Positions 1,503-58,100 of a stretch of 64,000 nucleotides of DNA are shown here, piece after piece (positions within the stretch are counted from its first letter, which is position 1; every line of letters starts with the position of its first letter). Where the stretch lies: assembly GCA_947561715.1 (NCBI GenBank), contig OX387203.1:15128001-15192000 (forward strand), in the 5' to 3' direction. The position numbers and the translations under genes are program-made. The notes below the pieces were generated by a model. It was not told the origin of the DNA. It was given only the letters and a program-made list of their open reading frames with translations, and searched no databases. Source of the stretch: Ascidia mentula. Taxonomy: Eukaryota; Chordata; Ascidiacea; Phlebobranchia; Ascidiidae.

Positions 1503-2043
1503 CTCGTTTATCTTCTGATTCTGTAATGGTTGATTCATGATAATGGGCGTGATGGTGATGATGTTCTTCCACAGTCTGATGCAGATGTTCTTCCACAGTC
1601 TGATGCAGATGTTCTTCTACAGTCTGATGCAGATGTTCTTCCACAGTCTGATGCAGATGTTCTTCCACAGTCTGATGCAGATGTTCTTCCACAGTCTGAT
1701 GCAGATGTTCTTCCACAGTCTGATGCAGATGTTCTTCTACAGTCTGATGCAGATGTTCTTCCACAGTCTGATGCAGATGTTCATGATGATGTACGTCACC
1801 AGTATGTAGGTGTAGGTTCTGGAATGGAACCAGCAAAAGTAACCAAACACACTAATATTAATCGTACAAAAAGACAGCATGGTCGTTGAAATGTTCTGAA
1901 ATCAAAAACTGTTTCTAAACTTCCCACATGCGCGATTGAATTTCCCCAACCTCTACCACCAGTACAGCAAATCTCAAGAACAACAAGCTTACCTCGGCAA
2001 CAATGTATTGTGAGTTTTCTCCTTCTGTTTGTCGTTCGGCCAT
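1503..2043 (-). CDS. NLR0: first two coding exons of an NLR-type gene (partial)
   Basis: Two exons are visible: 1993-2043 (ATG, 17 residues MAERQTEGENSQYIVAE, donor GAG|GTAAG, phase 0) and 1503-1818 (phase 0 to 1). The second exon opens NLHLHTGDVHHHEH, then has nine copies of LHQTVEEH, then HHHHHAHYHESTITESEDKR, and ends at a CGAG|GTAGGG donor. These match the first two exons of NLR1, NLR2 and NLR3, which splice in phase to a NACHT exon. The rest of NLR0 is not in the window: a Penelope-like element occupies the intron left of 583, and any NACHT exon would lie beyond coordinate 1. The gene may be whole or truncated. The peptide has many spaced His and Glu residues and could bind metal or form a coiled coil; that is inference. 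Confidence 0.65.
1561..1780 (-). repeat. coding minisatellite, nine 24-bp units (LHQTVEEH)
   Basis: Nine tandem 24-bp units, nearly identical; the few differences are single bases such as CCACAG versus CTACAG. The minus-strand frame encodes the octapeptide LHQTVEEH and is the frame that splices in phase from the ATG exon. The orthologous arrays in NLR1, NLR2 and NLR3 have four, three and one units. The unit length is a multiple of three, so changes in copy number keep the frame. Confidence 0.95.
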
Positions 2044-10141: not shown

Positions 10142-13100
10142 TTACTGACGATCCAAACCCCAAACTTTCGGCTGAAAAAAAATCACAAAACTTTTAATTT
10201 CATCAAAATTAACGAAACCATGTTTTAATGCAAATATAAATTAAACAAATTCTTACCGGATTTTCCAGTTTTTTAATCTCTTTTCTCAAGACTCGAATAG
10301 ATTCGGAATCGAATCCGCATCCACGCAACGACAACCACCCATCCACTTTAGGGAGAATCCGACAAATATTTCCAACATCTTTTTGTTCAAACTTGTTGCG
10401 ACCCAGGTAGAGAAATCTCAACTATTTAAAATATAAAGATTGGTCGGAAATCTTTGTTTCAAACTTTTTTTGAAACAGATTTTTTTCTTAAAACCGGATT
10501 AAAATTAACTCCATGTTTACACTTTTGATTAAAAAAAGTAAGTTTCATAAAAATATCATGGATTTGAACAAATATTTATTCTCAAAGTAATGAAAACCAA
10601 CCTTGGGTCCCATCTTCATAATCGCTTCACAGATCATGTTTAAAGTTTCGGAATTAAGTCCGCATTCCCTCAACAACAGCCACAAACCGGGTTCTTGAAT
10701 CTGTGGGAGGAAATCCGCGAGAGCGAAAACATCCGAAATCTTCAGTGGGATTCCGGTTAAACTCAACTTCCCAGGACAAGAGAGGGCGATTTTATCTCTA
10801 AATATTTCGTCAACTTCCTGTAAATCTACGAGGAAATCTGAAACAGGGACAAGTTTATTAAAACAAACATGGCGGAAGTTTCATTAAATCATTAAAACTT
10901 TTTATTGCAAACTTCAAACAAGATTTCATCACTTTTAATCGGATTTAAACAAGACAAGATCCAACAAATTAATCAAATACAAAAACATTAACTTACTGGA
11001 AGGAAAACATAAACTTTATCCGACAAAAAATATGCGACCTTCCTTTAAAACTTTCAACCTGAATTAAACATTTTTATTCCATTCTCTTCTATAAGAACAA
11101 TGGAATTGCGACGTCACAATACTTACTGTGACGTCACAGTTACGTTTACAAACACGCATCACACAGACTGGAAATAAATACTAACCTCGTAACTCGTATC
11201 TACGTAAATACGATCCATGGGGCCTTTTTTCTCGCAGGTATTTCGAAAGTTTCTTCAACAACTTTTTCGCACGTTTGTCTGAAAATAACAAGATCAACAT
11301 TTACGGCAAAAATAGAAGCGCATTTGGATGGGAGAATTATTTAAACTCCCAATGTGCGTTTTCCACAAATATAACCTGCGTATATTAGATGCGTAATGAG
11401 ATGTGAGACTTTCGAAACCACGATGCCCGTTTACCCAATATAATGGTAACTTGTAGTGGAAACTGTGTGAAAGTTTAACAGCAAGCTTTTCGCGTAAAGC
11501 AACGTTGTGTAACAAATTGTAAACATGGTTTTGCAAATCGTTCAGGGCCTGTCAATGCAGACAAGTGCAACAAAACAAATATGTTACATTACAGCAGCAT
11601 CTTAACTTTGGCAATAGTTTCTTTGTCCAAGCTTTTTACACCTAAATGCCTTGTATTACTTTGCTGGTTACAATTATTACAGCAGAATGATTTTCTTATG
11701 TTTAGATGAGAAAAAAGAAAAGATTGTTTTTAATGTAACTGACTACCATGCATTTGTTCCTCATTGTTAAGTGTGGAGGATGCTGGATCACTGGAAGCAG
11801 TCTTGACTGAGGTTGATGGCAAGGTTTCTGGACTGGAACCACTTCCATCACCTGCAAAAAACAATCAAGGTGATAACTGCAATTTAATGGCACTTATGTA
11901 CACTGTAAGGGTTAACCCAATGCGAAGGCCTTACTTAATAATTTTGACAATAAATAAATTAGGTTACAGTGGCTTAACAACCAAGCTGGACCTGGGCATT
12001 CCAGGCCACTGCTCTGTCTGTGGGAGTTCGCCAGTTAGACTTTACAGCAGGGATACATAACACGAATGTCATATTTGGTTCTCCAGTGGATTTTGAAGTG
12101 ACTTCACAAACAGGTTTTAACTTTATGAAACTACTCTTTGAGTTGTGCATCCTGCTTTACTGGGAAAAGGGATTTAATTCAGCTATGCTGTATTCATAGG
12201 CTAATTACTGCTTTAAACCACACCGGGAGTCCATTTCAAAAGCAAATAAAAAAAGATGCATTTTTGGAGCCATTGAGATCTATAAATATTCTTACTGACT
12301 GCTTCAGGTACAGCAACAGCAAAATGTTTAAAAAAAGCCATAATAATTGAGAGCTGCAGACAGGGTGTACACGCACTGTTTCGGCCTATGAGGTCTCATC
12401 AGTGAAGCTGTTGACTGTGGCACTGTGCTAGCTTTTACAAAAGCAGTCACACTGATTTTCCAAACCACCGGTGGTTTTTCTTGTTTGGTACCCAGTATAA
12501 GGTACCCAATGGATTGACGTTGACCGAAAGGTTCCACAAAGTGGAAATCAGTGGCCCGGTAGTGTAAAAGCTAGCACAGTGCCACAGACAACAGCTGCAA
12601 TGATGAGACATCATAGGTCGAAACAGTGCATGTACACCCTGTCTGCAGCTCTCAAAATGTTTACATATGTGAAATGTTGTAATATTCATACCATTTGACA
12701 ATTAATTTAAGTGCCCAAAACCACAGGTTTATGCAAAACAATGGATATAATAAATACCAAAGAATTTTTGTGTTACAAAAATGGTATACTTCAGTACTTG
12801 CACTAAAAATCAGTTGAGCAACGTGTGTATATAGGGCAGAACTTACTTTTTACATGTTCTAGCTCACCACCATCTATTTGAGATATTGTGGTTGCCTTAA
12901 GCTCAGCTGCAGCAGTGGAGGTTTCACCAGCTGTAGAAACATGTGTTAAATTTACATTTACAATACATGATTGTTTAGATTAACACAACAAATGGATTGA
13001 GCTACTGTGGCATGCTTACAGCACTAAAACGTTACACACCAAGTAACAGCGGCATCACAGCCAAGACTGGTAAAGCTTCTTTTCCTGATAGCTCAAGATA

Positions 13101-16100
13101 TAAAAAAGCACTGGAGTTTGAACTCGTAACTCTGGTCATTAGGAACCATAGTTCTACCAACTAAGCTATGAAAGTTCCAAAAAATGGAAACACCCACTTT
13201 GGCTGTGATGTCACTGCCAAGAAGCAGGGAAATAAAACTCAATAATTTGAAAATTTAACCTTTTCCTGCATGTTTTCGATGTTTCTTTGAACGTCTTGAA
13301 AAAAGTCCCGCAAAAAAACCTGTTTGTTTCTTTGTGGCAGAATTGGAAGAAACTAAACAAAAATACTGAGTTTATCAAGTCAAGCATAACCATACTATAA
13401 CACATAATACACTGTTAAATCTTGTGCAGCCCAGTTTAAAAATGAAAGGATTGTTGTTATGTTATGTTTTCTGCTTTGTAAATATTTATCACCATTATCC
13501 AGCGACTGTTTTGAATGTTGGGCCTTGGAAGTTGTTGCGCCACCTAATGTTTTGGATGAAGACGATTCGATATTTCTTGAAGCCAAACCATCCCTGAAAG
13601 CTTTAAAACAATGTGTTGAAATATATAGCATAGCATATATATATATCATTTATTTTCATTTTTTGTAGACTTTAGTGAAGTGTTGTAATATTCATACCAT
13701 TTAACAATTAATTTATGTGCCTTAAACCACAGGTTTATGTAAAACAATGATTATAATAAATACCAACGAATATATGAATGCAAAACATGGTGGCAACATT
13801 ACACTCCAGTTTGTGTTGTAAAAATGTTATACTTCGTTTCTTGCACTAAAAATCAGTTAAGCAACGTGCGTATATAGGGCAGAACTTACTTTTTACATGT
13901 CCCAGCTCACCACCATTAATTTGAGATATTCTGGTTGCCCCAAGCTCAGCTGCAGCAGTGGAAGTTTCACCAGCTGTAGAAACATATGTATTACAAATCA
14001 TAAACAAGATATACTGGGATACCATCTGTTTGCCAGTGCCTTGATAAAACAGAGTACAAACATTTGCTAAAATTCTAGTAAAATTTTAAATAATTGTTCC
14101 AGTGGTTCTCAACCTGTAAGGGCTTTTAAGTGGTGTGCATAAAAAATTGCAACATAGACAAATTCCATCCAAAAATGCCAATCGTGTGAAATTGCATGCT
14201 GTGGCATGTGTCATGAACTTTCAATGGGCATTAAATCCTGTTTCTGGTTTTTATTTGGCATTTTGATATTCAGTTCAAAGTACAACACAACCATGCTTTA
14301 ACACACAATACACTGTCAAATCTTGTGCAGCACAGTTTAAAAATGTAGGCATTGTTGTTGGTTATGTTTCACTCAAATAGTTTTCTGCTTCAAAAACATT
14401 TACCACCATTTTCCGGCGACTGTTTTGAAAGTTGGGCCTTGGAATTTGTTGCGCCATCTAATGTTTTGGATGAAGTAGATTTTACATTTGTTGAAGCCAA
14501 ACCTTCTCTGCAAGCTGTAAAACAATGAGTCACAATATATAGTATAGCATATAATATATCTTTCTTTTTCTATCAATTACAAGTTCATTGCTTAGTACTC
14601 AGCAAAGTTTTGTCAGCAAAAAAGATAACAGAAACACATTTTTAATACACAAATACCAAATATACATAGTACTGACGGATTTTATGCATCTTGGAAATTG
14701 TCGTACCGCTAACAGCACTATTGACAGGATCAGATTCTGAGCTGGTTTCACTATGTCCACTTCCAGATGCTTTGATTGAAAATTATAAAATAAAAATAAT
14801 GGTCATTAAAGCACAAACTTTCCAATGTGCTGCACATACCTGGTTTGTGTCCGAGTAAAAGGCCACACACAAAACGACGAACCATTGCCCAATGGGGTTT
14901 GTTAATCAAATCGTCAACGATTTGATCAAATTCTTCATCTGACATGAACATAGAAATGTAGTATGCACCAAACATTTCCTGCAGAACTTGATGAAGGTAG
15001 TAGAAGAGAACATCTCTCCCATCAAAGACTCTACGACTGGGAAACCATGAGAACTTTGCCATTTTGAACACTACATCCTGTACTTTTACATCTTCTAAAC
15101 CTACTTTTTGAAGGTCATCATGTGTGAACACAACGGTTTTGCGAACCATGCCTTCATATGCCATTTGGCTAAGTGGCAACTTGAGGTTTTCTAATTTCTC
15201 TCCTTTTGCATGCTCAGAGTGACCAAGTTGTTGCAAAACGACATCAAATACATTAGTTATAGTGGAAACACTGTGCACCTCACCAAATAACCCAGCATAA
15301 ACAATAAATTGTAAAAGCATTGGATTGCGGCATAAATCAAGCAATTGTGGAGATTTAGTTGCAAGTTTGTTCCACAGTTTATTTGCTTTATCACCTGAGT
15401 AACTATCAAACAGTGTCTTTGCATCCTCAGGAGAAAGATCACTGACATAAATTGTTGGCTTAGGTCGGAGTCCTAATGGTATTGATAGCAATGAGTGGGG
15501 CCGAGAAGTAAAAATCAATTTAGATTTTGGAAAAAATTGCCTGCTGCAAAGGTTAGCAACAAGCTGTTGTACTGGCAAGGGAGTGTGATACTTCTCATTT
15601 ACAGGTGCCATGTTTTCTAGTGTCCAGGTTGCCTGATCTAATCCATCAAAAATAAAAGCACACTTTTCTGGGTTGTTTATCATCCACTGGAAAACCAAAC
15701 TGAGTGTTTCCTGTGAAGCACGGTTGAACTGGTTATCCAGCAGAAGCTCCTGCAAAGTAAGCTTTCTATCGCCGTAGTTTAAATGCATGAACCGAAGATG
15801 AAGCACTAAGTGATCTTCTGTTTCTAGTTGCCTGCATAATCTCTTTGAAAGAGTGGTTTTGCCGCATCCAGCCAGTCCAAGGAAAGCTAGAAATATGCCT
15901 TGCTGGTTGTGTTCTTTGAACCTTGAAACTAGTTGGGAAAATTTGATGTGTTCACCAACAAATCGAGCTTTGCCCCCCTTCCTTGTAGATGGCTGAAACT
16001 TATTTTCCTTTTGAGGATCAATTCCTTTGTAAATATCAGTATCTATCAGTGTTGGTTGAACCTCTGGTATTTCAACCTTTTGCAACTCTTCACTGTAAGG

Positions 16101-19100
16101 GACAACATCGGGATCAAGATTTTCAAGCTGATACCTTTTGATTTCATCAACTGCCTGTTGCAACTTTTCTTCTGCAAATTTTAAACAGGTTTTTCAGATA
16201 ATAAATGCATGTTACAGTGGTTTTTAGACAAAACAGTGGGCTCTAGCATCTATGTTTGGCTGGTATAATTTTATTGCAGCATGCTGCATAACCACAACGC
16301 AAATTGAGGATTAGTGTTTATCTGTCAAATTATATTGTAATGGTAACGTTTAATGCCACAGAAAATTGATAAAATCCCCAAGTACAAAAACGGGAAAAAA
16401 TTGTCTGCTGTTAGTTTTTAGCAAACCGTATAATGTATCATCATATTTTCATTTCACATGCTTGTTTACGAAGTTTTAGTTGTTCTAACTCTTATTTTTC
16501 GTCAATTTATGTAACTACTTTGCTTCGTAGGAGTAGGAACAAACATAATTTCAGATGACATCGACAAACATCACAGAGTGTTTTTAGTTGTGACAGGCAA
16601 ATTTCGAGTTGTGACTCCCTGATTGGTTGGATTTTTACCCACAATGCAGTATACCTAATGGAGCTTAAAAAAACTGCTGAAGGACGCATATTGGTTTTTC
16701 TATGAAAATATGTTTGACAGCGGAAAATTTGCACCTTGTATTTAATCCTCTGTCACAAAAGAAGGACGTCACAAAGCAATCAGTGATGCATGGGGTTCAA
16801 TTTTACGTTTGAGCACATGTGCCGTAGCTTGGACTAAGTTAGTAGTCTCTGCTTGGACGAATTTGAGCCAGTTTTAGGCAGTTTTAAGTAGAGTTTTGGG
16901 TGTTTTAAGTCAGGTTGTTACGTGGTAACGGTTGCTGTATAAAATTGAGCTGATAAGGCGGTTCAATCTTGAGGCTATATCTGCAGAATAATCAAAGACT
17001 TATGAATTACAAAAAAATTCTGGTCCAAGAACACCATCGGTGACGGGACCTGCAGCCAACATGATGTCTGACGGAAGTCAATGTTCATAACGAAAGTGAT
17101 GTTTCAATCCTGCTATAACTGACAAATCGCATCCTAAAAGCATGAGCAATCAGTCATGTTGTGTAGCAGCCTACTGTTAATGCCACAGTTCTAACCCGCT
17201 TTATAGCCAAGTTAAATAATGTGAGTGATATTTTTCATTATTGTTGAAACTTTCTATTAGTTATGTTCCTCAATCGAAATCATAATCACTCAGCAAAACT
17301 TGGTGAAACAAGTCAGGTTTTTTTACAAAGTTGTGTATTTTGTGCTTTTTCAGAGGAAGAACTTTCAGCGATTGTATGAGAGTGTTTCCGTTCCACAGTC
17401 AGCAAAAAAAGCTTAATCGTAGACAAACGTAGGTGTTTTAGCTAAAGTGTTTGTTTTACATGTTGGCCAAACAAGCGTGAAGAAAATTCCTCACTTTCTA
17501 AGCCCATGTCATCGGCGTGAAAATGCCTTGGACTTACAGGCACCGTAGCTTCATTTGACAGTTTGGCTTAACACTAGATACAGTAAACTGGAATCTTCTG
17601 TCCACCGTAATCCATATTGGAAATAGCTGTCCCTGTACTGTCGTATCTACCAACTGATTTAAACGTTTTCACAAACACTTTACTTCCCGTATGTTTGCTC
17701 AGTTTCGCTTGTCACAGCTACAAAAATATGTTCCACACTTGTCCTCAAGTGGTTTGTAAAATGGTTACGTAGGTTGTTTGTGATGTCACGAGGTTATGAG
17801 TTGAGAGTTAACTATCAAAACATTTAATGGCTTGATGCCACATAACCAAAATGTTTGCAGTGGCAACATATAAGCGCATGTGTAGAATGGTTTCATATCT
17901 CCGTCGAAACTATTTTATCAATTTTTCGCGGCACACACAGTTTGCGAAACCTGTTAAACGCATTATTCTGACTAGCTGTAAAGTGCACTATTCGTTCAAG
18001 TAGACAAAAATGATCGCATTCTCATCATGATTCTACAAGGGAAGTGAGAGCTCCCGAGCATCTGGATCCAAACACAAATTACTAAACACATAAAAGTATC
18101 TGAAAACGTTTTTACACCTTTCACGCAAAAAGGTCACGGACAGCATGCTTTCGTCTTCAATGCTGAAGTCAGACACATTCTTATTTTAATCGGAATATTG
18201 CTTTCCTTAAAAGCAGAGGTCGGTGTTGTGACAACCAAGACATGCACGCCCACAGCCTTCTAGTATCATGCTGAACGACAGAACTTTTTGCTCGCACTTG
18301 CATTTCGCCCCAACAACAACCGTAACTGGAACTTAAGTGCTCTGTACACCAGAGGCGTTTGATGGTTGCGGCTGACGATGCGTAGCGGTCGCCGATTTTT
18401 CCGCGCTTTTGGAAGCGCCAAGAGGCTTTACACTAGCAGTGCGATTGTCGCCACCGCGGCAAATCATTTCAATATCTACAGCGTCTTTGTGTCGTAAAAA
18501 CGTCAATGGGAAACTTCTGTTAATTTTATTTTTTACGACAATTGACTTATTGATCTATTTTATATTCATGTACGGAGAGTTTCCTTACGAAATATGTATT
18601 ATTTGCTTCGCTTTTACTTGTGGAAGAGCAAATGACTATGTTAGTGTCACTGATTTACAATATTTTGTGATGTACAATAAAAAAAAAACGTTTTCCAATG
18701 TCCAAAAATTAAATACCGCAAAACAATTTGCGCCATTTTCAACAATAAATTTTATCACCAAACACTCAATATAGGTACAAATAGAATTGTTTAAAACCAC
18801 CTAAAATAAATCATAACTAGCCAAATACCGAACGAAAAAGAGCTTCGGGTCATTGCGGCTGAAGTTAAATCAGTTTTAACTCCGCCGTCAGAGGCTTCGA
18901 GCGAGAAAATCACGCCGTCAAGGCCATGGCCACGTTTGGTGTGAATCATGCTACAGGCAGTCACTATCTCCGTGGTATATGTTAATTGCTCCTGCTCAGT
19001 AACTTAATACATAAAAGCCAACGATGTACATTTACATGAACTTGCGTTTCGTGACATAGAACCAGATTTCCATAGCAATGCATCATGCATGGCAACCTAA

Positions 19101-19824
19101 CTGATCATTGGTAGCAAAATTGCTGACAACCATAAACAAAATTTGTAGAATTCAGTGAAACATTATCTGCAGTGACAATTTTAATGTGATGATTTCCACG
19201 TCATTTTATCAGAGTCTAACGGTCTTAGTCACATAATATGGTCAATTCGATTCTATGTTGTTGCTGAGGCAAGACACAGATATTAGTAAATGAGTCGCAT
19301 TTAAGCTAATATTTTTGTCTTCTCCAAATGGTCGTAAATAGATGCAAAATCAGTTGGGGTTCGACTTGAATACAAGCATTTGTATTCCAAACTTCCCTAG
19401 TAAAACTCCCTACCTCGTTTAACTTCTGATTCTGCAATGGTTGTTTTCTGATAATGGTAATGATGTTCTTCAACAGTCTGATGCAGATGTTCTTCTACAG
19501 TCTGATGTAGATGATGTTCTTCTACAGTCTGATGCAGATGTTCTTCCACAGTCTGATGGTGATGTACGTCACCAGTATGTAGGTGTAGGTTCTGGAATGG
19601 AACCAGCAAAAAGTTACCAAACACACAAATATTAATCGTCCAAAAAGACAGCATGGCCATTGAAATCTTTCAAAATCCATTACTGTTTCTAATCTGCCCA
19701 CATGCGTGCTTGATTTTCTCCAACCCCGACCACCAGTACAGCAAATCTTAATATTCAAGAACAACAAGCTTACCTCGGCAACAATGTTTTGTGGGTTTCC
19801 TCCTTCTGTTTGTCGTTCGGCCAT
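10142..19824 (-). CDS. NLR1: His-rich/NACHT/Ser-Thr linker/LRR protein, 878 aa model
   Basis: Spliced NLR-type innate immune receptor, presumably cytosolic. My exon model on the minus strand is 19774-19824, 19414-19591, 14840-16171, 14707-14769, 14407-14514, 13890-13973, 13493-13600, 12847-12930, 11747-11851, 11186-11278, 10602-10837, 10257-10421 and 10142-10171. All junctions have GT/AG sites and matching phases. The sum is 2637 bases with one terminal stop. Domains: leader MAERQTEGGNPQNIVAE; four LHQTVEEH-type repeats; NACHT with Walker A GLAGCGKTT (about 175-183), Walker B FIFDGLD (about 249-255), sensor FTSRP, and the winged-helix motif YLHQVLQEMFGAYY; Ser/Thr-rich linker (about 521-704); Lys/Arg-rich exon (about 705-735); two LRR exons (about 736-869). 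The linker has no recognised domain. The 3.2-kb intron after exon 2 could hide an extra phase-1 exon. The NACHT call is firm; the His-rich N-terminus rests on splicing logic. Confidence 0.82.
12353..12408 (-). ncRNA. hammerhead ribozyme candidate, type I, core intact
   Basis: Read on the minus strand: GCTTCA, CTGATGA, GACC, loop TCATA, GGCC, GAAA, CAG, loop, CTG, TC, TGCAGC. All core positions of the hammerhead are present (CTGATGA, GAAA, and GTC at the cleavage site). Stem I (GCTTCA/TGCAGC) has one mismatch and stem II (GACC/GGCC) one. Stem III is ACAG/CTGT, closed by a loop, with stem I open, which makes it type I. It lies on the sense strand of NLR1, inside an intron. Of the copies here, this is the most likely to be active. 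Confidence 0.65.
12594..12649 (+). ncRNA. hammerhead-ribozyme-like sequence, opposed partner
   Basis: GCTGCA/TGCAGC stem I is perfect, stem II ends GGTC, and GAAAC and CTGTC are intact. The core reads ATGATGA, so C3 is changed to A, which should abolish cleavage. It faces the copy at 12353-12408. Confidence 0.6.
12660..14550 (-). repeat. internal tandem duplication of two exon modules plus introns in NLR1
   Basis: Two blocks of about 1 kb (12660-13680 and 13680-14550) have similar introns (TGTTGTAATATTCATACC starts both) and similar exons. Module A exons (12847-12930 and 13890-13973, 84 bp) encode GETSTAAAEL. Module B exons (13493-13600 and 14407-14514, 108 bp) encode a Ser/Lys-rich segment with SKTL and SKQS. 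All are phase 1-1, so gain or loss keeps the frame. NLR2 and NLR3 keep the same B-A-B-A order. Confidence 0.85.
13107..13176 (-). pseudogene. tRNA-like relic in an NLR1 intron
   Basis: The minus strand has an A-box-like TAGCTTAGTTGGTAGAA and a B-box-like GAGTTCAAACTCC at tRNA spacing. The anticodon stem is imperfect (TGGTT/GACCA with a six-base loop) and the acceptor strands do not pair. Copies lie at 38893-38958 and, partly deleted, near 57788-57843. It is a tRNA-derived remnant and not a working tRNA. Confidence 0.45.
17025..17090 (-). mobile_element. LTR retrotransposon fossil fragment
   Basis: About 65 bases match, in the other orientation, the leader part of the fossil copies at 5090-5160 and 48905-48960. 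It is part of an insertion in the NLR1 intron (about 17025-17260) that is absent from units 2 and 3. The fragment is broken and undateable on its own. Confidence 0.4.
19461..19558 (-). repeat. coding minisatellite, four units (NLR1)
   Basis: Four units of the LHQTVEEH-encoding 24-bp repeat. One junction carries an extra in-frame codon (EEHHLHQ). It sits in exon 19414-19591 of NLR1. Confidence 0.9.
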
Positions 19825-19890
19825 TCTTGGATTAGCAGGTGTAGGTTTGTATTGCAAGTACAGTATAGAAATATATTACACATATATACA
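19825..19890 (-). promoter_or_regulatory. putative NLR1 promoter / 5' leader
   Basis: Upstream of the ATG the minus strand reads TATATATG and ATATATTTCTATACTG, then CACCTGCTAATCCAAG directly before AATGGCC. The same layout precedes the ATG of NLR0, NLR2 and NLR3. The AT-rich motifs could be a TATA element. The CTAAT followed by an AG immediately before the ATG could instead be a splice acceptor. Neither is proven. Confidence 0.35.
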
Positions 19891-35635: not shown

Positions 35636-38600
35636 TTACTGATCATTCAAACCCGAAACTCCCGGCTGAAAAATCACAAAACTTTTAATTTCATCAAAAT
35701 TAACAAAACCATGTTTTAATGCAAATATAAATTAAACAAATTCTTACCGGGTTTTCCAGTTTTTTAATCTCTTCTCTCAAGACTCGAATAGATTCGGAAT
35801 CGAATCCGCATTCATACAGCCACAACTCCTCATCCACTTTAGGGAGAATCCGACAAATATTTTCAACATCTTTTTGTTCAAACTTGTTGTCACTCAGGTT
35901 GAGAAATCTCAACTATTTAAAATATAAAGATTGGTTGGAAATCTTTGTTTTAAACTTTTTTTGAAACAGATTTTTTTTTTTTAAAACCGGATTAAAATTA
36001 ACTCCATGTTTTCACTTTTGATTAAAAAAAGTAAGTTTTATAAAAATATCATGGATTTAAACAAATATTTATTCTCAAACTAATGAAAACCAACCTTGGG
36101 TCCCATCTTCATAATCGCTTCACAGATCATGTTTAAAGTTTCGGAATTAAGTCCGCATTTACCAACCCCAGCTCCAAACTGGGTTCTCGAATCCGTGGGA
36201 GGAAATCCGAGAGAGCGAAAACATCCGAAATCTTCAGTGGGATTCCGGTTAAATCCAACCACGGAGGACAAGAGAGGGCGATTTCATCTCTAAATATTCG
36301 GTCAACTTCCTGCAAATCTACGAGGAAATCTGAAACAGGGACAAGTTTATTAAAACAAACATGGCGGAAGTTTTATTAAATCACTAAAACTTTTTCATGC
36401 AAACTTCAAACAAGATTTCTTCACTTTTAATCGGATTTAAACAAGACAAGATCCAACAAATTAATCAAATACAAAAACATTAACTTACTGGAAGGAAAAT
36501 ACAAACTTTATCCGACAAAAAATATGCGACCTTCCTTTAAAACTTTCAACCTGAACATTTTTATTCCATTCTCTTCCATAAGAACAATGGAATTGCGACG
36601 TCACAATACTTACTGTGACGTAACAGTTACGTTTACAAACACGCATCACACAGACTGGAAATAAATACTAACCTCGTAACTCGTATCTATTTAAATACGA
36701 TCCATCAGGCCTTTCTTCTCCCAAGTATTTCGAAAGTTTTTTCAACAACTTCGCGCGTTTGTCTGAAAATAACAAGATCAACATTTACGGCAAAAATAGA
36801 AGCCATGTATTTGGATGGGAGAATTATTTACACTTCCAATGTGCGTTTTCCACAAATATAACCTGCGTATATTAGATGCGTAATGATATGTGAGACTTTC
36901 TAAACCACGATGCCCGTTTACACAATATAATGGTAGCTTGAAGTGGAAAGTATGTGAAAGTTTAACAGCAAGCTTTTCGCGTAAAGCAACGTTGTGTAAC
37001 AAATTGTAAACATGGTTTTGCAAATCGTTCAGGGCCTGTCAATGCAGACAAGTGCAACAAAACAAATATGTTACATAAGCAGCATCTTAACTTTGGCAAT
37101 AGTTTCTTTGTCCCAGCTTTTTACACCTAAATGCCTTGTATTACTTTGCTGGTTACAATTATTACAGCAGAATGATTTTTCTATGTTTAGATGAGAAAAA
37201 AGAAAAGATTGTTTTTAATGTAACTGACTACCATGCATTTGTTCCTCATTGTTAAGTGTGGAGGATGCTGGATCACTGGAAGCAGTCTTGACTGAGGTTG
37301 ATGGCAAGGTTTTTGGACTGGAACCACTTCCATCACCTGTAAAAAACAATCAAGGTGGACCAGGGCATTCCAGGCCACTGCTCTGTCTGTGGGAGTTCGC
37401 CAGTTGGACTTTACAGCAGGGATTCACTACACGAATGTCATATTTGGTTTGCCAGTGGTTTTTGAATTGGCTTTGCAAACAGGTTTTAACTTTACAAAAC
37501 TACTCTTTGAGTTGTGCAACCTGCTTAACTGGGAAAAGGGGATTTAATTCAGCTATGCTGTATTCATAGTAGTGATGTGTTGCGCCGGATCCGTGTACCC
37601 GGACCCGGCCGGATATTGACCAATTTTCAATACCCGGACCCGGCCGGATAATAGACTTAATTTTACCGGATAGTTGGGGAAGCATTTTTGTCCTAAAAGC
37701 GCAAACATTTCACAAATTACTCGTTTTTGGGACCCAGTCTGTTATACTCGCCGACGTAAGATTTTTCTGTTATTTGTTATTAAGGTATTTCGTGACGTGT
37801 TGTACCATATTAATAAATGCCCATGTTTATTTGTTTCACTCATGATAGGCTAACCTTAACATAGCATTCTGTTTGGCAATCAAACATTTTTGCCATACCG
37901 ATAAAATACACTAATCGGTGTTAACAAACTGCCGGATCCAAATTATCCGGCCGGATTTGATTGATAACTATCCGGATCCGGCCGGGCCGGATAATTTGGA
38001 ACTGGGAACATCACTAATTCATAGGCTAACCACTGCTTTAAACCACACCGGGAGTCCATTTCAAAAGCAAATCAAAAAAGAGGCAATTTTGGAGCCATTG
38101 AGATCTATGAATATTCTTACTGACTGTTTTAAGAACAGCAACAGCAAAATGTTTAAAAAAAGCCATAATAATTGAGAGCTGCAGACAGGGTGTACACGCA
38201 CTGTTTTGGCCTATGAGGTCTCTCAGCAGGCACATTGATTTTCCAAACCACCGGTGGTTTGTCTCTGTTGTTTGGTACCCAGTATAGGGTACCCAATGGA
38301 TCGACATTGACCGAAAGGTACCACAAAGTGGAAATCAGTGTGCCCGCTAGTGTAAAAGCCTGCACAGTGCCACAGTCAACAGCTGCACTGATAAGACAGA
38401 CATCATAGGTCGAAACAGTGCATGTACACCCTGTCTGCAGCTCTCAAAATGTGTGAAATGTTGTAATATTCATACCATTTGACAATTAATTTAATTTCCC
38501 AAAACCACAGGTTTATGCAAAACAATGGATATAATAAATACCAAAGAATTTTTGTGTTACAAAAATGGTATACTTCAGTACTTGCACTAAAAATCAATTA

Positions 38601-41600
38601 AGCAGCGTGTGTATATAGGCCAGAACTTACTTTTTACATGTCCTAGTTCACCACCATCTATTTGAGGTATTCTGGTTGCCTCAAGCTCAGCTGCAGCAGT
38701 TGAGGTTTCACCAGCTGTAGAAACATGTGTTAAATTTACATTAACAATACATGATTGTTTAGATTAACACAACAAATGGATTGAGCTACTGGGGCATGCT
38801 TACAGCACTAAAACGTTGCACACCAAGTAACAGCGGCATCATAGCCAAGCCTGGTAAAGCTTCTTTTCCTGACAGCTCAAGATATAAAAAAGCACTGGAG
38901 TTTAAACTCATAACCCTGGTCATTAGGAACCATAGTTCTACCAATTAAGCTATGAAAGTAATAAAAAATGGAAACACCCAGTTTGGCTGTGATGTCACTG
39001 CCAAGAAGCAGGGAAATAAAACTCAATATTTTCAAAATTTAACCTTTTCCTGCATGTTTTGGATGTTTCTTTGAACGTCTTGAAAAAAGTCTCGCAAAAA
39101 AACCTGTATGTTTCTTTGTGGCAGAATTGGAATAAACTATAGAAAAATACTGAGTTTATCAAGTCAAGCATAACCATGATATAACACATAATACACTGTC
39201 AAATCTTGTGCAGCACAATTTAAAAAAGAAAGGATTGTTGTTATGTTATGTTATCTGCTTTGTATATATTTATCACCATTATCCAGCGACTGTTTTGAAT
39301 GTTGGGCCTTGGAAGTTGTTGCGCCATCTAATGTTTTGGATGAAGACGATTCGATATTTGTTGAAGCCAAACCATCCCTGAAAGCTTCAAAACAATGTGT
39401 TGAAATATATAGTATAGCATATATATATATATCATTCTTTTTCTATTTTTTTGTAGACTTTAGTGAAGTGTTGTAATATTCATACCATTTAACAATTAAT
39501 TTATGTTAATTTAAAATTATTAATGTAACCACAGGTTTATGTAAAACAATGATTATAAAAAATACCAAAAAAATATATGAATGCAAAACATGGTGGCAAC
39601 ATTACACTCCAGTTTGTGTTGCAAAAATGTTATAGTGCGTTACTTGCACTAAAAATCATTTAAGCAGCGTGTGTATATAGGGCAGAACTTACTTTTTACA
39701 TGTCCTAGTTCACCACCATCTATTTGAGGTATTCTGGTTGCCTCAAGTTCAGCTGCAGCAGTGGAGGTTTCACCAGCTGTAGAAACATATGTATTACAAA
39801 TCATAAACAAGATATACTGGGATACCATCTGTTTACAAGTGCCTTGATGAAACAGCGTACAAACATTTGTTGAAATTCTAGTAAAATTTTAAATAATTGT
39901 TCCAGTGGTTTTTAAGTTTAAGTGGTTTTTTAAGTGGTGTGCATAAAAAATTGCAACATAGACAAATTCCATCCAAAAATGCGAATCGTTGTGAAATTGC
40001 ATGCTGCGACAAGTGTCATGAACTTTCAATGGGCATTAAATCCTGTTTCTGGTTGTTAATTGGCATTTTGATATTCAGTTCAAAGTACAACCCAACCATA
40101 ATTTAACACATAATGCACTGTCAAATCTTGTGCAGCACAGTTAAAATGAAAGCATTGTTGTTGGTTATGTTTCACTCAAACAGTTTTCTGCTTCGAAAAC
40201 ATTTACCACCATTTTCCGGCGACTGTTTTGACAGTTGGGCCTTGGAATTTGTTGCGCCATCCAATGTTTTGGATGAAGTAGATTTTACATTTGTTGAAGC
40301 CAAACCTCCTCTGCAAGCTGTAAAACAATCAGTCACAATATATAGTATAGCATATAATATATCTTTCTTTTTCTATCAGTTATATTTAAGTTCAATGCTA
40401 TGTAATCGGCAAATTTTTGTCAGCAAAAAAGATAACAGAAACACATTTTTAATACACAAATACCAAATAAATATAGTACTGACGGATTTTATGCATCTTG
40501 GAAATTGTCGTACCGCTGACAGCACTATTGACAGGATCAGATTCTGAACTGGTTTCACTACGTCCACTTCCAGAGGCTTAGATTGAAAATTATAAAATAA
40601 AAAAAATGGTCATTAAAGCACAAACTTTCCAATGCGCTGCACATACCTGGTTTGTGTCCGAGCAAAAGGCCACACACAAAACGACGAACCATTGCCCAAT
40701 GGGGTTTGTAAATCAAATCGTCTACGATTTGATCAAATTCTTCATCTGACATAAACATAGAAATGTAGTATGCACCAAACATTTCCTGCAGAACTTGATG
40801 AAGGTAGTAGAAGAGAACATCTCTCCCATCAAAGACTCTACGACTGGGAAACCGGGAGAACTTTGCCATTTTGAACACTACATCCTGTACTTTTACATCT
40901 TCTAAACCTACTTTTTGAAGGTCATCATGTGTGAACACAACGGTTTTACGAACCATTCCTTCATATGCCATTTGGCTAAGTGGCAACTTGAGGTTTTCTA
41001 ATTTCTCTCCTTTTGCATGCTCAGAGTGGCCAAGTTGTTGCAAAACTTCATCAAATACATTAGTTATGGTGGAAATACTGTGCACCTCACCAAATAACCC
41101 AGCATAAACAATAAATTGTAAAAGCATTGGATTGCGGCATAAATCAAGCAATTGTGGAGATTTAGTTGCAAGTTTGTTCCACAGTTCATTTGCTTTATCA
41201 CCTGAGTAACTATCAAACAGTGTCTTTGCATCCTCAGGAGAAAGATCACTGACATAAATTGTTGGTTTAGGTCGGAGTCCTAATGGTATTGATAGCAATG
41301 AGTGGGGCCGAGAAGTAAAAATCAATTTAGATTTTGGAAAAAATTGCCTGCTGCAAAGGTTAGCAACAAGTTGTTGTACTGGCAAGGGAGTGTGATACTT
41401 CTCATTTACAGGTGCCATGTTTTCTAGTGTCCAGGTTGCTTGATCTAATCCATCAAAAATAAAAGCACACTTTTCTGGGTTCTTTATCATCCACTGGAAA
41501 ACCAAACTGAGTGTTTCCTTTGAAGCATGGTTGAACTGGTTATCCAGCAGAAGCTCCTGCAAAGTAAGCTTTCTATCGCCGTAGTTTAAATACATGAACC

Positions 41601-44600
41601 GAAGATGAAGCACTAAGTGATCTTCTGTTTCTAGTTGCCTACATAATCTCTTTGAAAGAGTAGTTTTGCCACATCCAGCCGGTCCAAGAAAAGCTAGAAA
41701 TATGCCTTGCTTTTTGTGTTCTTTAAAGCTTGAAACTAGTTGGGGAAATTTGATGTGTTCACCAACAAATCGATCACTGTCCCCGTTGCTTGTTGATGGC
41801 TGAAACTCATTTTCCTTTTGAGGATCAATTCCTTTGTAAACATCAGTATCTATCAGTGTTGGTTGAACCTCTGGTATTTTAACCTTTTGCAACTCTTCAC
41901 TGTAAGGGACAACATCGGGATCAAGATTTTCAAGCTGATACTTTTTGATTTCATCAACTGCCTGTTGCAACTTTTCTTCTGCAAATTTTAAACAGGTTTT
42001 TCAGATAATAAATCCATGTTACTGTGGTTTTTAGACAAAACAATGAGCTCTAGCATCTATGTTTGGCTGGTTTAATTTTAGTGCAGCATGCTGCATAACC
42101 ACAACGCAAATTGAGGATTAGTGTTTATCTGTTAAATTATATTGTAATGGTAACGTCTAATGCCACAGAAAAATAATAAAATCCCCAAGCACAAAAACGG
42201 GAAAAAAATTGTCTGCTGTTTAGTTTTTTAGCCAACCGTCTAATGTATCATTATATTTTCATTTCAAATGCTTGTTTACAAAGTTTTAGTTGATCTAACT
42301 CTTATTTTTCGTCAATTTATGGAACTACTTTGCTTCGGAGTAGGAACAAACATAATTTCAGATGACATCAATAAACATCACAGAGTATATTTAGTTGTAA
42401 CAGGCAAATTTCGAGTTGTAACTCTCTTATTGGTTGTATTTTTACCCACAATGCAGTACACTTTATGGAGGAAAAAACAAAAAGGACGCATATTGGAATT
42501 TCTATTAAAATAAATTTGGCGGCGGAAAATTTCCACCTTGTATTTGATCCCCTGTTACCATAGAAGGAGGACGTCACAAAGCAATCAGTGAAGCATTGGG
42601 GTCAATTTTACGGTTGAGTGAGCACGAATGCACGAATGTGTTGTTGCTTAGGGGAATTTGAGTCTGTTTTGGGCAGTGGAGTTTTGGGCGTGTTAAGTCA
42701 GGTAGCTACGTGGTAACGTGTGCTGAAAAAAATTGAGCCAAAAAGGCGGGTAAAACTTCAGGCTATATTTGCAGAATAATTGAAGACTTATGTCTGCGTC
42801 GAACGGCAACAAAATTCTGGTTTTCTACTAGTTATGTTCCCAGTTCTAAACTATCCGGCCTGGCGAAACCTAGTGTGAAGAAAGTGTGCAGAAAAAGTGG
42901 ACGCGAACATATCAGCGGAAAGTAAATCAATCGAAATCATAATCACTCAGCAAAACATGGAAAACAAGTCAGGTTTTTTAACAAAGTTGTATATTTTCTG
43001 TTTTTTCAGAAAAAGAATTTTTAGCGATTGTATGAGAGTGTTTCCGTTTCACAGTCAGCAAAAAAAGCTCCATCGTAGACAGACGTAGGTGTTTCAGCTA
43101 CAGTGTTTGTTTTGCATGTTGGCCAAACAATCGTGAAGAAAATTCCTCACTTTCTAAGCCCATGTGATCGGCGTGAAGATGCCTTGGTAACTTACTGGCA
43201 CCGTAGATTCATTTGACAGTTTGGCTCAATACAAAATACGGTAAACTGGAATCTTCTGTCCACCGTAATCCATATTGGAAATAGCTGTCCCTGTACTGTC
43301 GTATCTACCAACTGATTTAAACGTTTTCACAAACACTTTTACTTCCCGTATGTTTGCTCAGTTTCGCTTGTCACAGCTACAAAAAAATGTTCCACACTTG
43401 TCCTCAAGTGGTTTGTAAAATGGTTACGTAGGTTATTTGTGATGTCACGAGGTTACGAGTTGATAGCAAACTATTGAAACAATTCATGGCTTGATGCCAC
43501 ATTATCAAAATGTTTGCAGTGGCAACATATAAGCGCATGTGTAGAATGGTTTCATATCTCCGTCGAAACTCTTTCATCAATTTTTCGCGGCATACTCAGT
43601 TTGCGAAACCTGTTAAATGCATTATTCTGACAAGCTGTAAAGTGCACTGTTCGTTCAAGTAGACAAATATGATCGGATGCTCATCATGATTCTACAAGGG
43701 AAGTGAGAGCTCCCGAGCATCTGGATCCAAACACAAATTACTAAACACATAAAAGTGTCTGAAAACTTTTTTACATCTTTTACGCAAAAAGATCACGGAC
43801 AGCATGCTTTCGTCTTAAATGCTGAAGTCAGGCACATTCTCATTTCAATAGGAATATGACTTTCCTTGAAAGCAGAGGTCGGTGTTGTGACAACCATGAC
43901 ATGCACGCCCACAGCCTATTTTATATTCATGTACGGAGCGTTTCCTTACGAAATATGTATTATTTGGTTCGCTTTTACTGGTGGAAGAGCAAATGACTAT
44001 GTTAGTGGCACTGATCTACAATATTTCGTGATCTACAATAAAAAAAAAACGTTATCCAATGTCCAAAAATTAAATACCGCAAAATAATTTGCGCCATTTT
44101 CAACAATAAATCTTATCACCAAACACTCAATATAGGTACAAATGGAATTGTTTAAAACCACCTAAAATAAATCATAACTAGCCAAATACCGAACGAAAAA
44201 GAGTTAAATCAGATTTAACTCCGCCGTCAGAGGCTTCGAGCGAGAAAATCACGCCGTCACGGCCATGGCCGTGTTTGGTGTGAATCATGCTTTAGACCAG
44301 TGCTTCCCAAACTTTTTTTCTGTACCGCCCCCCAAACAGCTTAGTCATTTAACAACGCCCAACAAAACAGACAAAAAATACAACGAATTTATTTGTTACT
44401 TGTCAATTAATGCGTTGGGTGGGGTTGGTGCAATGACACCAATTTCGTTTAATTTCTAATATTTCAATACCAAACTGTAGTTAAAAACAAGTAAACCATA
44501 ACACCAAAAATCCTCATTTTCGAATAGCGGTTATTTAGCGTTGATTGGTGACACATTGTGACATACAAAAAATTCGTTGTGACGTCAGAATCAATATCTT

Positions 44601-45970
44601 TTAGTTCAGCATGCGAGAAAAGGCTTATTTGCAGTAGCATTAAAGGCTTTTTTGCAGTAACTTATACAAAGATTGGACTAAATCATTTGGCCCAGTGATT
44701 CCCAACCTTTTTGTGGTTGCGTACCACTTGGAGGTACAACAATTTCGTCGTGTACCACCTAGCTAAGTGTTGCAAAGTAGCATTGAGCCTGTATTATCGA
44801 AAATTTGGAAATTAGTTACGATTTTTAAAATTCGAACTATACCCGCAAACTACGGAGAGGTGCTCCTGAAATGCGGTCGCGTACAACTAGTGGTAAAACG
44901 TACCACCGGTTGGGAAACACTGACCTACGCTATAAGAGAAAATTTGCCCTGTCATCAAGCGCCCACCAATCGGTCATTTATTTCCTAGCTCCCCCAATCG
45001 CCCATTTGGTCTTCAGCGCCCCCCACAAGATTGCAAACGCCCCCAGGGGGGCGCTGGCGCCCACTTTGGGAACCACTGCTTTACACAGTCACTATCTCCG
45101 TGGTATATGTTAATTGCTCCTGCTCAGTAACTTAATACATAAAAGCCAACAATTTACATTTACATGAACTTGCGTTTCGTGACATAGAACCAGATTTCCA
45201 TAGCAATGCATCATGCACGGCAACCTAACTGTTCATTGGTAGCAAAATTGCTGACAACCATAAACAAAAATGTAGAATTCAGTAAAACTGTAGTGACAAT
45301 TTTAATGTGATGATGTGCACGTCATTTAATTAGAGTCTAACGGTCTAAGTCACATAATATGATCAATCCGATTCTATGTTGTCGCTGGGGTAAGACACAG
45401 ATATTAGTAAATGAGTCGCATTTAAGCTAATAATTTTGTCATCTCCAAATGGTCGAATATAAATGCTAAATCAGTTGGGGTTCGACTTGAACAAAAGCAT
45501 TTGTATTCCAAACTTCCCTAGTAAAACTCCCATACCTCGTTTATCTTCTGCTTCTGCAATGGTTGATTCGTGATAATGGGCGTGATGGTGATGTTCTTCC
45601 ACAGTCTGATACAGATGTTGTTCTACAGTCTGATGCAGATGTTCTTCTACAGTCTGATGCAGATGTTCATGGTGATGTACGTCACCAGTATGTAGGTGTA
45701 GGTTCTGGAATGGAAACAGCAAAAGTTACCAAACACACAAATATTAATCGTGGAAAAAGACAGCATGGTCGTTGAAATATTCTGAAACCAAAAACCTGTT
45801 TTTTTAAACTGCCAACATGCGTTTTGTTACGTGCAAATAAAACTGTCACTCACAAATGATTTTCTCCAACCCCTACCACCAGTACAGCAAATCTTAATAT
45901 TCAAGAACAACAAGCTTACCTCGGCAACAATGTTTTGTGGGTTTTCTTCTTCTGTTTGTTGTTCGGACAT
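35636..45970 (-). CDS. NLR2: His-rich/NACHT/linker/LRR gene with a 1-bp deletion in the LRR part
   Basis: Exons by homology and splice phase: 45920-45970, 45536-45704, 40647-41978, 40514-40576, 40210-40317, 39693-39776, 39277-39384, 38631-38714, 37232-37336, 36673-36762, 36095-36329, 35748-35912, 35636-35665. The NACHT exon is intact, with Walker A GPAGCGKTT, FIFDGLD, FTSRP and YLHQVLQEMFGAYY. The leader is MSEQQTEEENPQNIVAE, with three histidine repeats. Exon 36095-36329 is 235 bases where NLR1 and NLR3 have 236; the missing base lies around 36160-36180, after which the frame reads ELGLVNADLIPKL and stops. The predicted protein loses most of its LRR part. It could be a truncated receptor, a young pseudogene or an assembly error. 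Introns carry a hAT MITE (44298-45078) and another MITE (37570-38016). Confidence 0.75.
37570..38016. mobile_element. hAT MITE, 447 bp, perfect 8-bp target duplication
   Basis: Starts TAGTGATGT and ends with the complement ACATCACTA. It is flanked by ATTCATAG on both sides, and NLR1 has the single uninterrupted ATTCATAG at the same intron site (near 12193). Near both ends it is rich in CCGG, with runs of GGACCCGGCCGGAT. The clean duplication indicates a fairly recent insertion. Confidence 0.93.
38178..38231 (-). ncRNA. hammerhead-like sequence, unit 2 left arm, degenerate
   Basis: The core is reduced (CTGAGA) and the GAAA box reads AAAA. Stem III and the GTC site remain. Inactive by sequence. 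Confidence 0.5.
38382..38441 (+). ncRNA. hammerhead-like sequence, unit 2 right arm
   Basis: GCTGCA/TGCAGC stem I, GAAAC and CTGTC are intact. The core reads CTGATAA (G8 changed to A) and stem II is extended by a few bases. G8 is the general acid, so activity is unlikely. Confidence 0.55.
44298..45078. mobile_element. hAT MITE, 781 bp, in the NLR2 intron, with a nested insert
   Basis: Ends are CAGTGCTTCCCAAACTTTTT and, reversed, CAGTGGTTCCCAAAGTGGGC. The flanks CTTTAGAC and CTTTACAC match at 7 of 8 positions, while NLR1 and NLR0 have the uninterrupted site (near 18945 and 1087). A second element, 44693-44922, has CAGTGATTCCCAACC and CAGTGTTTCCCAACC ends and lies within it. Confidence 0.88.
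44693..44922. mobile_element. nested hAT-type MITE, 230 bp
   Basis: Terminal repeats CAGTGATTCCCAACC and CAGTGTTTCCCAACC. The interior has GGTACGTTTTACCAC-like inverted pieces. No clear target duplication is left. Confidence 0.6.
45593..45665 (-). repeat. coding minisatellite, three units (NLR2)
   Basis: Three LHQTVEEH-type units with two substitutions (EQH and LYQ), in exon 45536-45704. Confidence 0.88.
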
Positions 45971-50110: not shown

Positions 50111-50418
50111 TGTTGAAATCATAAAAGTAAATTAGTTTTCTTGATGTTATGTGAATATCACATATATAGCACACTTGCACAGAATGTCACCATTAACTAA
50201 CTTTAAAGTGTTTCTTCGGTTTGACGTTGTAACACTTAAATCATTTTCACCCGTTGTCATTTTTGACAAACAAGTTGCAGATTTTAACAACTTTTTGTTG
50301 GTTTTTAAACTGGGTTGAAATATAATCAATCATATTATTCATCAAAACTTCATTATTTTGTAACAATTAAATAATAATGGTGGGGAAGGTCAACAATAAA
50401 AACATAACCTTGTCTTAC

Positions 50419-55125: not shown

Positions 55126-58100
55126 TCAAAAATAAATTCTGGGCTGAAAAAAAATCATTATCTATCATCTTCGAAAAAATTATCTACGTTAACGAAACCA
55201 TGTTTTTATGTAAAATTTAACAAAATTCTCACCGGGTTTTTCAGTTTTTCAATCTCTTTTGTCAAGACTCGAATAGATTCGGAATCGAATCCGCATCCAC
55301 GCAGCGCCAACCCCTCATTCACTTTAGGGAGAATACGACAAATATTTTCAACATCTTTTCGTTCAAACTTGTTGCCCCTCAGATCGAGATTTCCCAACTA
55401 TTTAAAATATAAAGATTGATCGGGAGTCTTTCTTTCAAATTTTCTTAAAAACAGATTAAAATCAACTCCATGTTTTTACTTTCAATTAGAAAAAGTAAGT
55501 TTTATAAAACTATTATGGATTTGAACAAATATTTATTCTCAAAATAATGAAAACCAACGTTGTGTCCCATCTTCATAATCGCTTCACAGATCATGTTTAA
55601 AGTTTCGGAATTAAGTTCGCATTTCCCCAAACCCAGAATCAAAACGGGTTCTCGAATCCGTGGAAGGAAATCCGCGAGAGCAAAAACATCCGAAATCTTT
55701 AGTGGGATTCTGATTAAATTCAACTCCTGAGGACAAGAGAGGGCAATTTCATCCCTGGATATTTCGTCAACTTCCTGTAAATCTACGAGGAAATCTGAAA
55801 CAGGCACAAGTTTATCAAAAACAAACATGGCGGTTTTTAAGATTTATTAAATCACTAAAACATTTTATTGCAAACTTCAAACAAGATTTCTTCACCTTTA
55901 ATCGGATTTTGAACTAAACATTTTTATTCCATTCTCTTCTATGAGAACAATGGAATTGTGACGTCACAATACTTACTGTGACGTCACAGTGAAGTTTACA
56001 AACACGCATCACACCGACTGGAAATAAATACTAACCTCGTAACTCGTATCCATCAGACCTTTTTTCTCGCAGGTATTTCGAAAGTTTCTTCAACAACTTT
56101 TTTGCACGCTTTACTGGGAAAGACCAGAGGGATATTAGTTGACAAAAAAAAATCGCCAGTTAACAAAATTTTGAACGCGAGTTACTTGGCCACTTACGAG
56201 GTAGCAGCATGATTTTTTCACACGTAAAAGTTCAATTCTGCCAACCTTTTTTATTTAAAGTGCATATGACACGGCCATGACAACTTTGCGTAAAACTAAA
56301 GGTACATCTACAACAAACATATATCCAAAGTTTTACGGTTCTACGTCAACTAAAAAATGTAGAAAACTGCACGAAAAGTAACGGCGACCAAAAATCGTAA
56401 ATCTTTTGCCCTGAGGAGAAAAGGACATCACATAAGGCGCTTGCGTCGAAAAAATGCATTGTTTAGATAGGAGAAGGCACCTTTTTTTGCAGATATCGAA
56501 TAGTTTCAAACATAGGAGAATGTACAGATTACGCTACCTTAAAGGTCAGAACAGGGTTTTGCATGACAAAAAAATTGTCATTGTGACGTCACGAATCAAA
56601 GGCCCTTATCAGCGGAAGACCATGGGGTATAGCAGAAACGACATAACTGTGAGTGGGCAAAACGACAATGCTAAACTAACGGTTTGTCTCTGTCGTGTTT
56701 TCAAAAGTTCATGTATCACGTTAGCGATCATAAATGCTGTAACAACAAGAACATCCTGTCCCAGTACCGTATTTACTCGATTGTAAGCCGCGGCTTATAA
56801 AGTTTTTTAACCTACCGTTTGTGCGGCTTACAATCGAGTAAATACGGTAACTGTTTTATTATTACACAACTAAACAAGACATAATAGTTTGAACTGCGGC
56901 CATCTGTCTTCAGCTTAAATTAACATCAAAATCCGTTTATTGCACTTGTTCACTTTTTGTCCCCTGTTTAATGCAATATTATGATTAAACCAGTTTTACA
57001 ATGTTTTCTATTCCTGCGCATAAGGATTGCTGCCAGCACTCGCGCACGACCGAAGCGCCTTCTACGACGTCACGCAACAATATCTCGCTTTCGCACGACG
57101 CGACAAAAGTGCGACTTTGATCAGCTGTATCTCAGAAACCAGTCGTCGTATCAAACTACTTTTTTCGCTAAAAAAGTTATGAACATCTCTTAGTTTGATT
57201 ATTAACATGTTTTATTTTTACGTGTCATATGCACTTTAAGTGTCCAAAACCACAGGTTTATGCAAAACAATGGATATGATAAATACCAATATATATGTTA
57301 CAGAAATGGTATACTTCAGTACTTGCACTACAGGACAGAACTTACTTTTTACATGTCCTAGCTCACCATCATCAATTTGAGGTATTCTGGCTGCCTGAAG
57401 TTCTGCTGCAGCAGTGGAGGTTTCACCAGCTGTAGAAACATGTGTTAAAAAGCAGAAGCAATATGTACTGGGCTACTGTTACATCTTACAAATGTTACCA
57501 AAAGCTAAATTAACAAAAAAATACAGCAAACAAATAAAATGTAAGGTTTTGAAAATTTGGTAAGACATTTCTGTCAAAAAAAAGTATGAAATGTGTATTG
57601 TAGTATGAATATAAATTAACATACAATTTTTTTCATTAACAATACATGATTGTTTAGATTAACACACCAAATGGATTGATCTACTGTGGCATGCTTACAG
57701 CACTAAAACGTTGCACACCAAGTAACAGCGGCATCACAGCCAAGCCGGGTAAGCTTCCTTTCCTGAAAGCTCAAGATATAAAAAAAGCACTGCAGTTTGA
57801 ACTCATAACCCTTGTCATTAGGAACCATAGTTCTACCAACTAAGAAAAAATGGAAACACCCAGTTTGGCTGCGATGTCACTGCCAATAAAACTCAATAAT
57901 TTAAAAATTTAACCTTTTTCTGCATGTTTTGGATATTTCTTTGAACGTCTTGAAAAAAGTCTTGCAAAACCTGTACGTTTTTGTGTGGCAGAATTGGAAT
58001 AAACTAAAGAAAAGCAAAAATACTGAGTTGATCAACTCAAGCATACCCATGCTGTAACACATAATACACTGTCAAATCTTATGCAGCGCAGTATGAAAAC

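Follow-up and report, generated by a model that had tools for sequence, protein, structure and literature searches.

Vertebrate NLRs commonly carry PYD or CARD domains as N-terminal heads. Receptors of Death-NACHT-LRR architecture (NLRD) are reported from amphioxus, sea urchin and sponges in a paper in which ascidian NLRs are described as headless, with NACHT-LRR or NACHT only (PMC11508797). In a second paper, the NACHT-LRR genes of one sponge are sorted into a CARD type, a Death type and a third type mainly without an identified N-terminal domain (PMC12909245). The family analysed here resembles the NLRD receptors in its NACHT domain, winged helix, LRR-like exons and N-terminal part joined at a phase-1 junction, but its clusters are without a Death match and have instead a leader exon (ATG exon) and an exon of histidine-rich octapeptides (His exon). 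The NACHT exon of copy 2 matched 23 PDB sequences and all 23 were NLRs (best 7crw, 7.7e-17), a likeness to vertebrate receptors such as NLRP1 and NLRP3, whose PYD or CARD heads differ from the His head. As in the ascidian NLRs so described (PMC11508797), Pfam recognises no head; in contrast to those receptors, a conserved, uncatalogued N-terminal segment appears to be present, and ascidian NLR heads would then exist and be unlike the catalogued ones. Judged from its sequence, the family is one of NLRs of the tunicate type, a known kind of receptor with an unfamiliar head.

The window (the whole 64,000-nucleotide stretch analysed, C71:15128001-15192000) lies on contig C71 of a genome searched as 195.8 Mb in 79 contigs and contains four copies (Table 1). 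The COX1 gene on contig C79 has 5 in-frame TGA codons and reads through under mitochondrial codes 4, 5, 9 and 13; under table 13 its AGR codons give Gly at positions of conserved glycines. This corresponds to the tunicate mitochondrial code, and the genome is very probably of ascidian type. The donor of the ATG exon is GTAAGCTT in all four, and each 17-codon ATG exon joins its His exon in phase 0. All four His exons begin in phase 0 after ..CCAG and end in phase 1, which is the phase at which the NACHT exon begins in three copies (at 16171, 41978 and 60775); both junctions are as the original prediction had described them. Allowing up to three mismatches, the window contains 16 occurrences of the octapeptide unit, all in copies 1 to 3, and 100 shuffles produced none. 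Copy 1 has its nearest NACHT match about 12 kb downstream, beyond the window; this match is partial and has a stop. Retroelement ORFs (window 13-426 and L012:4104-6424) are located between this match and the copy-1 His exon; by eye, they encode a reverse transcriptase and a GIY-YIG-like end and are Penelope-like.

Table 1. Positions of the putative exons and ORFs of the four copies, in window coordinates.
Feature	Copy	Position	Strand	Remarks
ATG exon	1	1993..2043	-	17 codons
ATG exon	2	19774..19824	-	MAERQTEGGNPQNIVAE, 17 codons, phase-0 donor
ATG exon	3	45920..45970	-	17 codons
ATG exon	4	63647..63697	-	17 codons
His-rich exon	1	1503..1818	-	9 counted octapeptides
His-rich exon	2	19414..19591	-	4 counted octapeptides, phase 0 in, phase 1 out
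His-rich exon	3	45536..45704	-	3 counted octapeptides
His-rich exon	4	63257..63377	-	1 counted octapeptide
NACHT/winged-helix exon	2	14840..16171	-	phase-1 start; 3' end by eye
NACHT exon	3	40647..41978	-	phase-1 start; 3' end by alignment to copy 2
NACHT exon	4	59444..60775	-	phase-1 start; 3' end by alignment to copy 2
LRR-like exon within ORF	2	10212..10421	-	LRFLYLGRNKFEQKDVGNICRILPK..; LRR_1 E 0.16, below cut-off
LRR-like ORF	3	35703..35912	-	LRR_1 E 0.0081, below cut-off
LRR-like ORF	4	55209..55397	-	by eye

Searched at the protein level, the NACHT exon had at least 96 matches in the genome; 95 of 300 candidates were scored, so these counts are lower bounds. At least 55 places on C71 matched at 73-100% identity, 8 of them partially (the count includes the query itself and takes two pieces of one exon as one), and at least 27 places on C69 matched at 52-57%. 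The ATG exon was found at 96-100% identity in at least 40 places genome-wide (40 of 66 candidates scored). Among the 31 loci that were fetched, the first 11 were taken because they bear arrays, and the next 20 were the top-ranking remaining NACHT places, chosen regardless of arrays. A same-strand His-exon match lay upstream in 18 of these 20, and in three of them it was weak or partial (L028, L033 and L036); L029 and L034 had no His-exon match within about 6 kb upstream. Across the window and the fetched loci, the donor could be read in 30 distinct His exons, and every one of them ends in phase 1; L012 was dropped from this count because it repeats window copy 1, and the near-identical L016 and L017 are both included. 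A 12-kb search placed a His exon 1.7-4.9 kb upstream of at least 27 of the 39 near-full-length minus-strand NACHT exons (a set that leaves out partial, plus-strand and distant ones); with 40 of 54 candidates scored in the DNA search, the true number may be higher. Against these 27 within 5 kb, 1000 random placements in the two clusters averaged 4.65 and never exceeded 10. For the same 39 NACHT exons, the ATG exon was found for 29 and either the ATG or the His exon for 35.

The position of the ATG and His exons leaves two ways of reading them: as the 5' end of the receptor gene, or as a separate small gene or alternative transcript, with NACHT using another 5' end. The second reading draws on the His-NACHT intron, which is 1.7-4.9 kb long and in places conserved as much as the exons. 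Identity in this intron is about 90% in many 100-base stretches and 68-85% in others, and with copies this young and an intron this similar, conservation alone cannot tell exon from intron. Twenty-six of 31 NACHT exons have no Met before the P-loop; Met is present in L014, L034 and L038, and L016 and L017 are truncated exons. The upstream sequence was also examined for first exons, and the conservation of 224 candidates was compared. The best phase-1 candidate with a donor score of at least 6/8 was preserved in 15 of 25 copies, none being kept in more, and the ATG exon (donor 7/8) was preserved in 22 of 26. Some tiny candidate ORFs were preserved better than the ATG exon, but their donors were weaker. 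This comparison favours the direct ATG-His-NACHT model without proving it. Given the Met-less NACHT starts in most copies, the lack of a better-kept phase-1 first exon with a donor of that strength, and the co-duplication and fixed phase of the His and NACHT exons, a separate gene or transcript is very unlikely. The gene model in which the ATG exon is followed by the His exon and then by a phase-1 NACHT exon is, in our judgement, very probably correct. The proposal of an NLR with an N-terminal octapeptide array is supported outside the window as well, with co-duplication in tens of copies, fixed phase, Met-less NACHT exons and selection on the octapeptide (see below) behind it.

An open-frame test of 27 aligned copies gave no clear candidate for a hidden exon between the His and NACHT exons. 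Two intron ORFs are open in 20/24 and 19/24 copies and overlap in two frames at about window 17537-17668; a third, of 26 residues, is open in 13 of the 15 copies compared (about window 17157-17234). We read these ORFs as low-indel blocks and not as coding; since all three are open in most copies, there is a small chance of a hidden exon. Directly before the ATG, CTACACCTGCTAATCCAAGA (window 19825-19844, with matching sites at other ATG exons), resembles a splice acceptor, and this pre-ATG segment is about as conserved as the ATG exon (0.89 and 0.87). Tunicates trans-splice a leader, and the messages may therefore be trans-spliced.

To describe selection on the array, we analysed 101 units from 27 exons (49 LHQTVEEH, 19 HHQTVEEH and 33 others); L012 and L017 were omitted as repeats, and L028 and L036 have no unit. 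In the core of the unit (codons 3-8), pS was 0.229 and pN 0.034, a pN/pS of 0.147 with a range of 0.07-0.25 when bootstrapped by locus and 0.08-0.22 when each locus contributes a single unit. In the wrong sense frames pN/pS was 0.076/0.029 (+1) and 0.087/0.029 (+2), ratios above 2.5. Synonymous variation thus far exceeds amino-acid variation in the true frame, so the octapeptide is under selection. Apparent constraint in the antisense frame with the same wobble site (pS 0.186, pN 0.037) is expected from the geometry and is therefore not independent evidence. The first 11 codons of the His exon are constrained as well (pN 0.032, pS 0.182), and the last 10 are without constraint (pN 0.111, pS 0.095). 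Both the ATG exon and the His exon have the look of genuine coding sequence.

The same measurements bear on whether the array, in an otherwise correct gene model, is a tolerated low-complexity spacer that changes by slippage, with signalling either headless or through another partner. The counted array length varies from 0 to 10 units among close paralogues, and among the 30 His exons, L028 and L036 lack any counted octapeptide; units were counted with one pattern, which missed further variant units in L019. Such variability is what a spacer would show, as is the unconstrained end of the exon, and the description of ascidian NLRs without an N-terminal domain (PMC11508797) agrees with it. The strong amino-acid constraint on the unit core and on the first 11 codons speaks against a spacer, as does the phase kept in 30 of 30 exons; we regard it as a serious possibility, if a somewhat doubtful one. 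Array length had no clear relation to NACHT distance among paralogues (Mantel r 0.14, a value reached in 96 of 500 shuffles).

Pfam NACHT matched copies 2, 3 and 4 at 9.2e-20, 2.4e-20 and 3.6e-19, respectively, and NOD2_WH, the winged helix that follows NACHT, was over the cut-off in all three window exons (8.7e-7 for copy 2). The P-loop G..G.GK[ST] is intact in 29 of 31 NACHT exons, the other two (L016 and L017) being truncated. The domain is constrained, with a median dN/dS of 0.35 in 253 pairs of 23 copies after 4 of 27 were dropped for stops or truncation. LRR-like ORFs were recognised by eye 4.0-4.7 kb downstream of NACHT in all three copies, with differing first-repeat residues; Pfam LRR_1 remained below the cut-off in both ORFs tested. 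Between these parts, Ser/Thr-rich exon-like ORFs follow NACHT at window 12830-14579 (STAGETSTAAAEL.. and REGLASTNVKSTSSK.., each in two versions in the copy read) and are probably linker exons of the receptor. DNA repeats after NACHT are likewise paired in copies 2, 3 and 4. When three copies were scored for exons downstream of NACHT, the signal was too weak for the linkers to be mapped.

Relatives of the family in the same genome have other heads. Three NACHT exons, at C71:19209211, C71:19472432 and C72:14507143 (56, 57 and 73% identity to the query), have a Death exon 2.4-5.8 kb upstream on the same strand. In the C72 relative a Death domain (Pfam 5.3e-10) is followed by another exon, a last exon ending in phase 1 and a phase-1 NACHT exon, with splice sites assigned by eye. 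These Death-NACHT relatives support the earlier suggestion that the His head stands in place of a known N-terminal domain. Six-frame searches of the genome at E≤0.001 gave 17 matches to Death (PF00531), none in the C71 His-NACHT clusters, and 3 to CARD (PF00619), none on C71, searches that a diverged domain could escape. A relative on C69 (L042:3046-3680, in C69:20097700-20101700) starts with MGNTESKKR.., which we take to be a myristoylation-like start, and continues with the short exon SSQQISAQEATITGSILGVQGDIIAPTINVYNTPG, with phase-1 junctions throughout by eye. This short exon has a Gly/Ile/Val pattern, ATITGSILGVQGDIIAPTINVYN, that is beta- or amyloid-motif-like in appearance; it had 24 genome matches, all on C69 (C69:18.6-21.3 Mb), and no match in a Pfam search. 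By eye, the same phase-1 NACHT junction occurs in one Death relative and one beta-exon relative.

From these arrangements, heads appear to have been exchanged, and a phase-1 intron before NACHT would allow such exchange by an economical history. We infer that a Death head gave way, at this same phase-1 intron, to a His head of two exons and that the cluster expanded afterwards, the direction of change in the C71 lineage being towards the His head. With one NACHT lineage bearing three alternative heads, joined through a phase-1 intron, the exchange of effector heads would be readable within one genome.

We found no His-repeat NLR head in the literature (open-licence papers), where a search on His ladders in helices likewise gave nothing related. 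The array gave no homologue in the PDB at E 0.001 or better (one match at E 0.3), and in Pfam it gave 28 families at E up to 5, of which the 25 listed were all below the cut-off. Matches to three Halobaculum plasmid records, at 41-43% identity across 61% of the query (best E 2e-7), were judged to be compositional. The nearest kinds of protein would be histidine-rich metal binders and single alpha-helix (ER/K) domains. The array shares His-rich repeats with the former and charged i/i+4 neighbours on a predicted lone helix with the latter, but its ladder is His-Glu with a Leu/Val stripe. AlphaFold2, run on the single sequence of the copy-1 His exon (105 residues), predicted one helix of 103 residues (2-104) with a mean pLDDT of 90.7 and a pTM of 0.44, a method that may over-call helices on a single repetitive sequence. 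Translated in a wrong frame, the same DNA encodes 72 residues that again repeat in octapeptides; this control gave a pLDDT of 43.3, a mild test because that repeat is rich in Ser and Gly. This one model with its control agrees with the helical repeat that had been proposed, and we consider it reasonably probable that the array is a helix. In the 8-residue unit the i/i+4 neighbours would form four continuous ladders, Leu-Val, His-Glu, Gln-Glu and Thr-His. Leu/Val recur every 4 residues, as read from the sequence, and a regular coiled coil looks unlikely because this spacing differs from a heptad. The ladders are compatible with a lone, stiff, titratable helix.

A putative mechanism can be outlined. 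The receptor would consist of the leader MAEQQTEGENPQNIVAE and variants, the His segment (0-10 [L/H]HQTVEEH), NACHT and winged helix, linkers, and LRRs. The array would be a single straight helix bearing the His-Glu i/i+4 ladder, its length set by the number of repeats. When the LRRs sense a ligand, NACHT would open into a wheel and bring many His/Glu helices side by side, and their packing would be controlled by a divalent metal (Zn) or by protonation. The His head would then act as a metal- or pH-tuned clustering module, not as a death-fold filament. That helices gathered on the NACHT wheel concentrate His/Glu and could bind Zn or sense protons is, taken by itself, rather unlikely. A tunicate NLR subfamily whose exchanged His helix head acts as a metal- or pH-tuned clustering module is a plausible, though tentative, description. 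The broadest version is unlikely: a new class of NLR head in dozens of genes of one tunicate, where a length-variable His/Glu helix with metal- or proton-gated assembly has replaced the death fold, plus a second unfamiliar, beta-type head in a sister cluster. A different role, in directing the protein to a place in the cell such as nuclear speckles, would fit the His fraction of 0.23-0.34 per exon, and histidine-rich stretches matter for nuclear speckle localisation according to one report (PMC3523016). The pure-His runs in the His exons are short, however, and we consider this role highly improbable. With a His repeat where some relatives have a Death domain, these receptors may use an unfamiliar mode of signalling or switching, and what a His/Glu helix does on an oligomerising receptor is a well-defined question for biochemistry.

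Several copies are broken or incomplete. In both L020 and L033, the His exon is continuous with the end of an ATG-exon copy and so has a phase-0 donor and no usable phase-1 donor; a join to NACHT would therefore be out of frame, and these His genes look broken. The usual ATG position is without an ATG in L010 and L030. In L012, L015, L016, L017 and L019 the array has no NACHT exon within the stretch retrieved. The nearest NACHT match is 35 kb away for L015 and 196 kb away for L019. These arrays could suggest other partners, but for three of them another reading applies: L012 contains the retroelement, and L016 and L017 have a NACHT start 2.4 kb downstream that is then cut. The latter two are near-identical copies 717 kb apart whose NACHT exon stays open for just 12 codons; past that point come long foreign ORFs and a tandem array, which we infer to be an insertion. 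Within the window, the NLR cluster also contains a long reverse-transcriptase ORF on the plus strand (50408-51991; Pfam RVT_1, 3.1e-37; non-LTR by eye), and positions 22085-22420 consist of tandem arrays built on a CAACATGTTGCTTATTTAAC unit, among which inverted copies are visible by eye.
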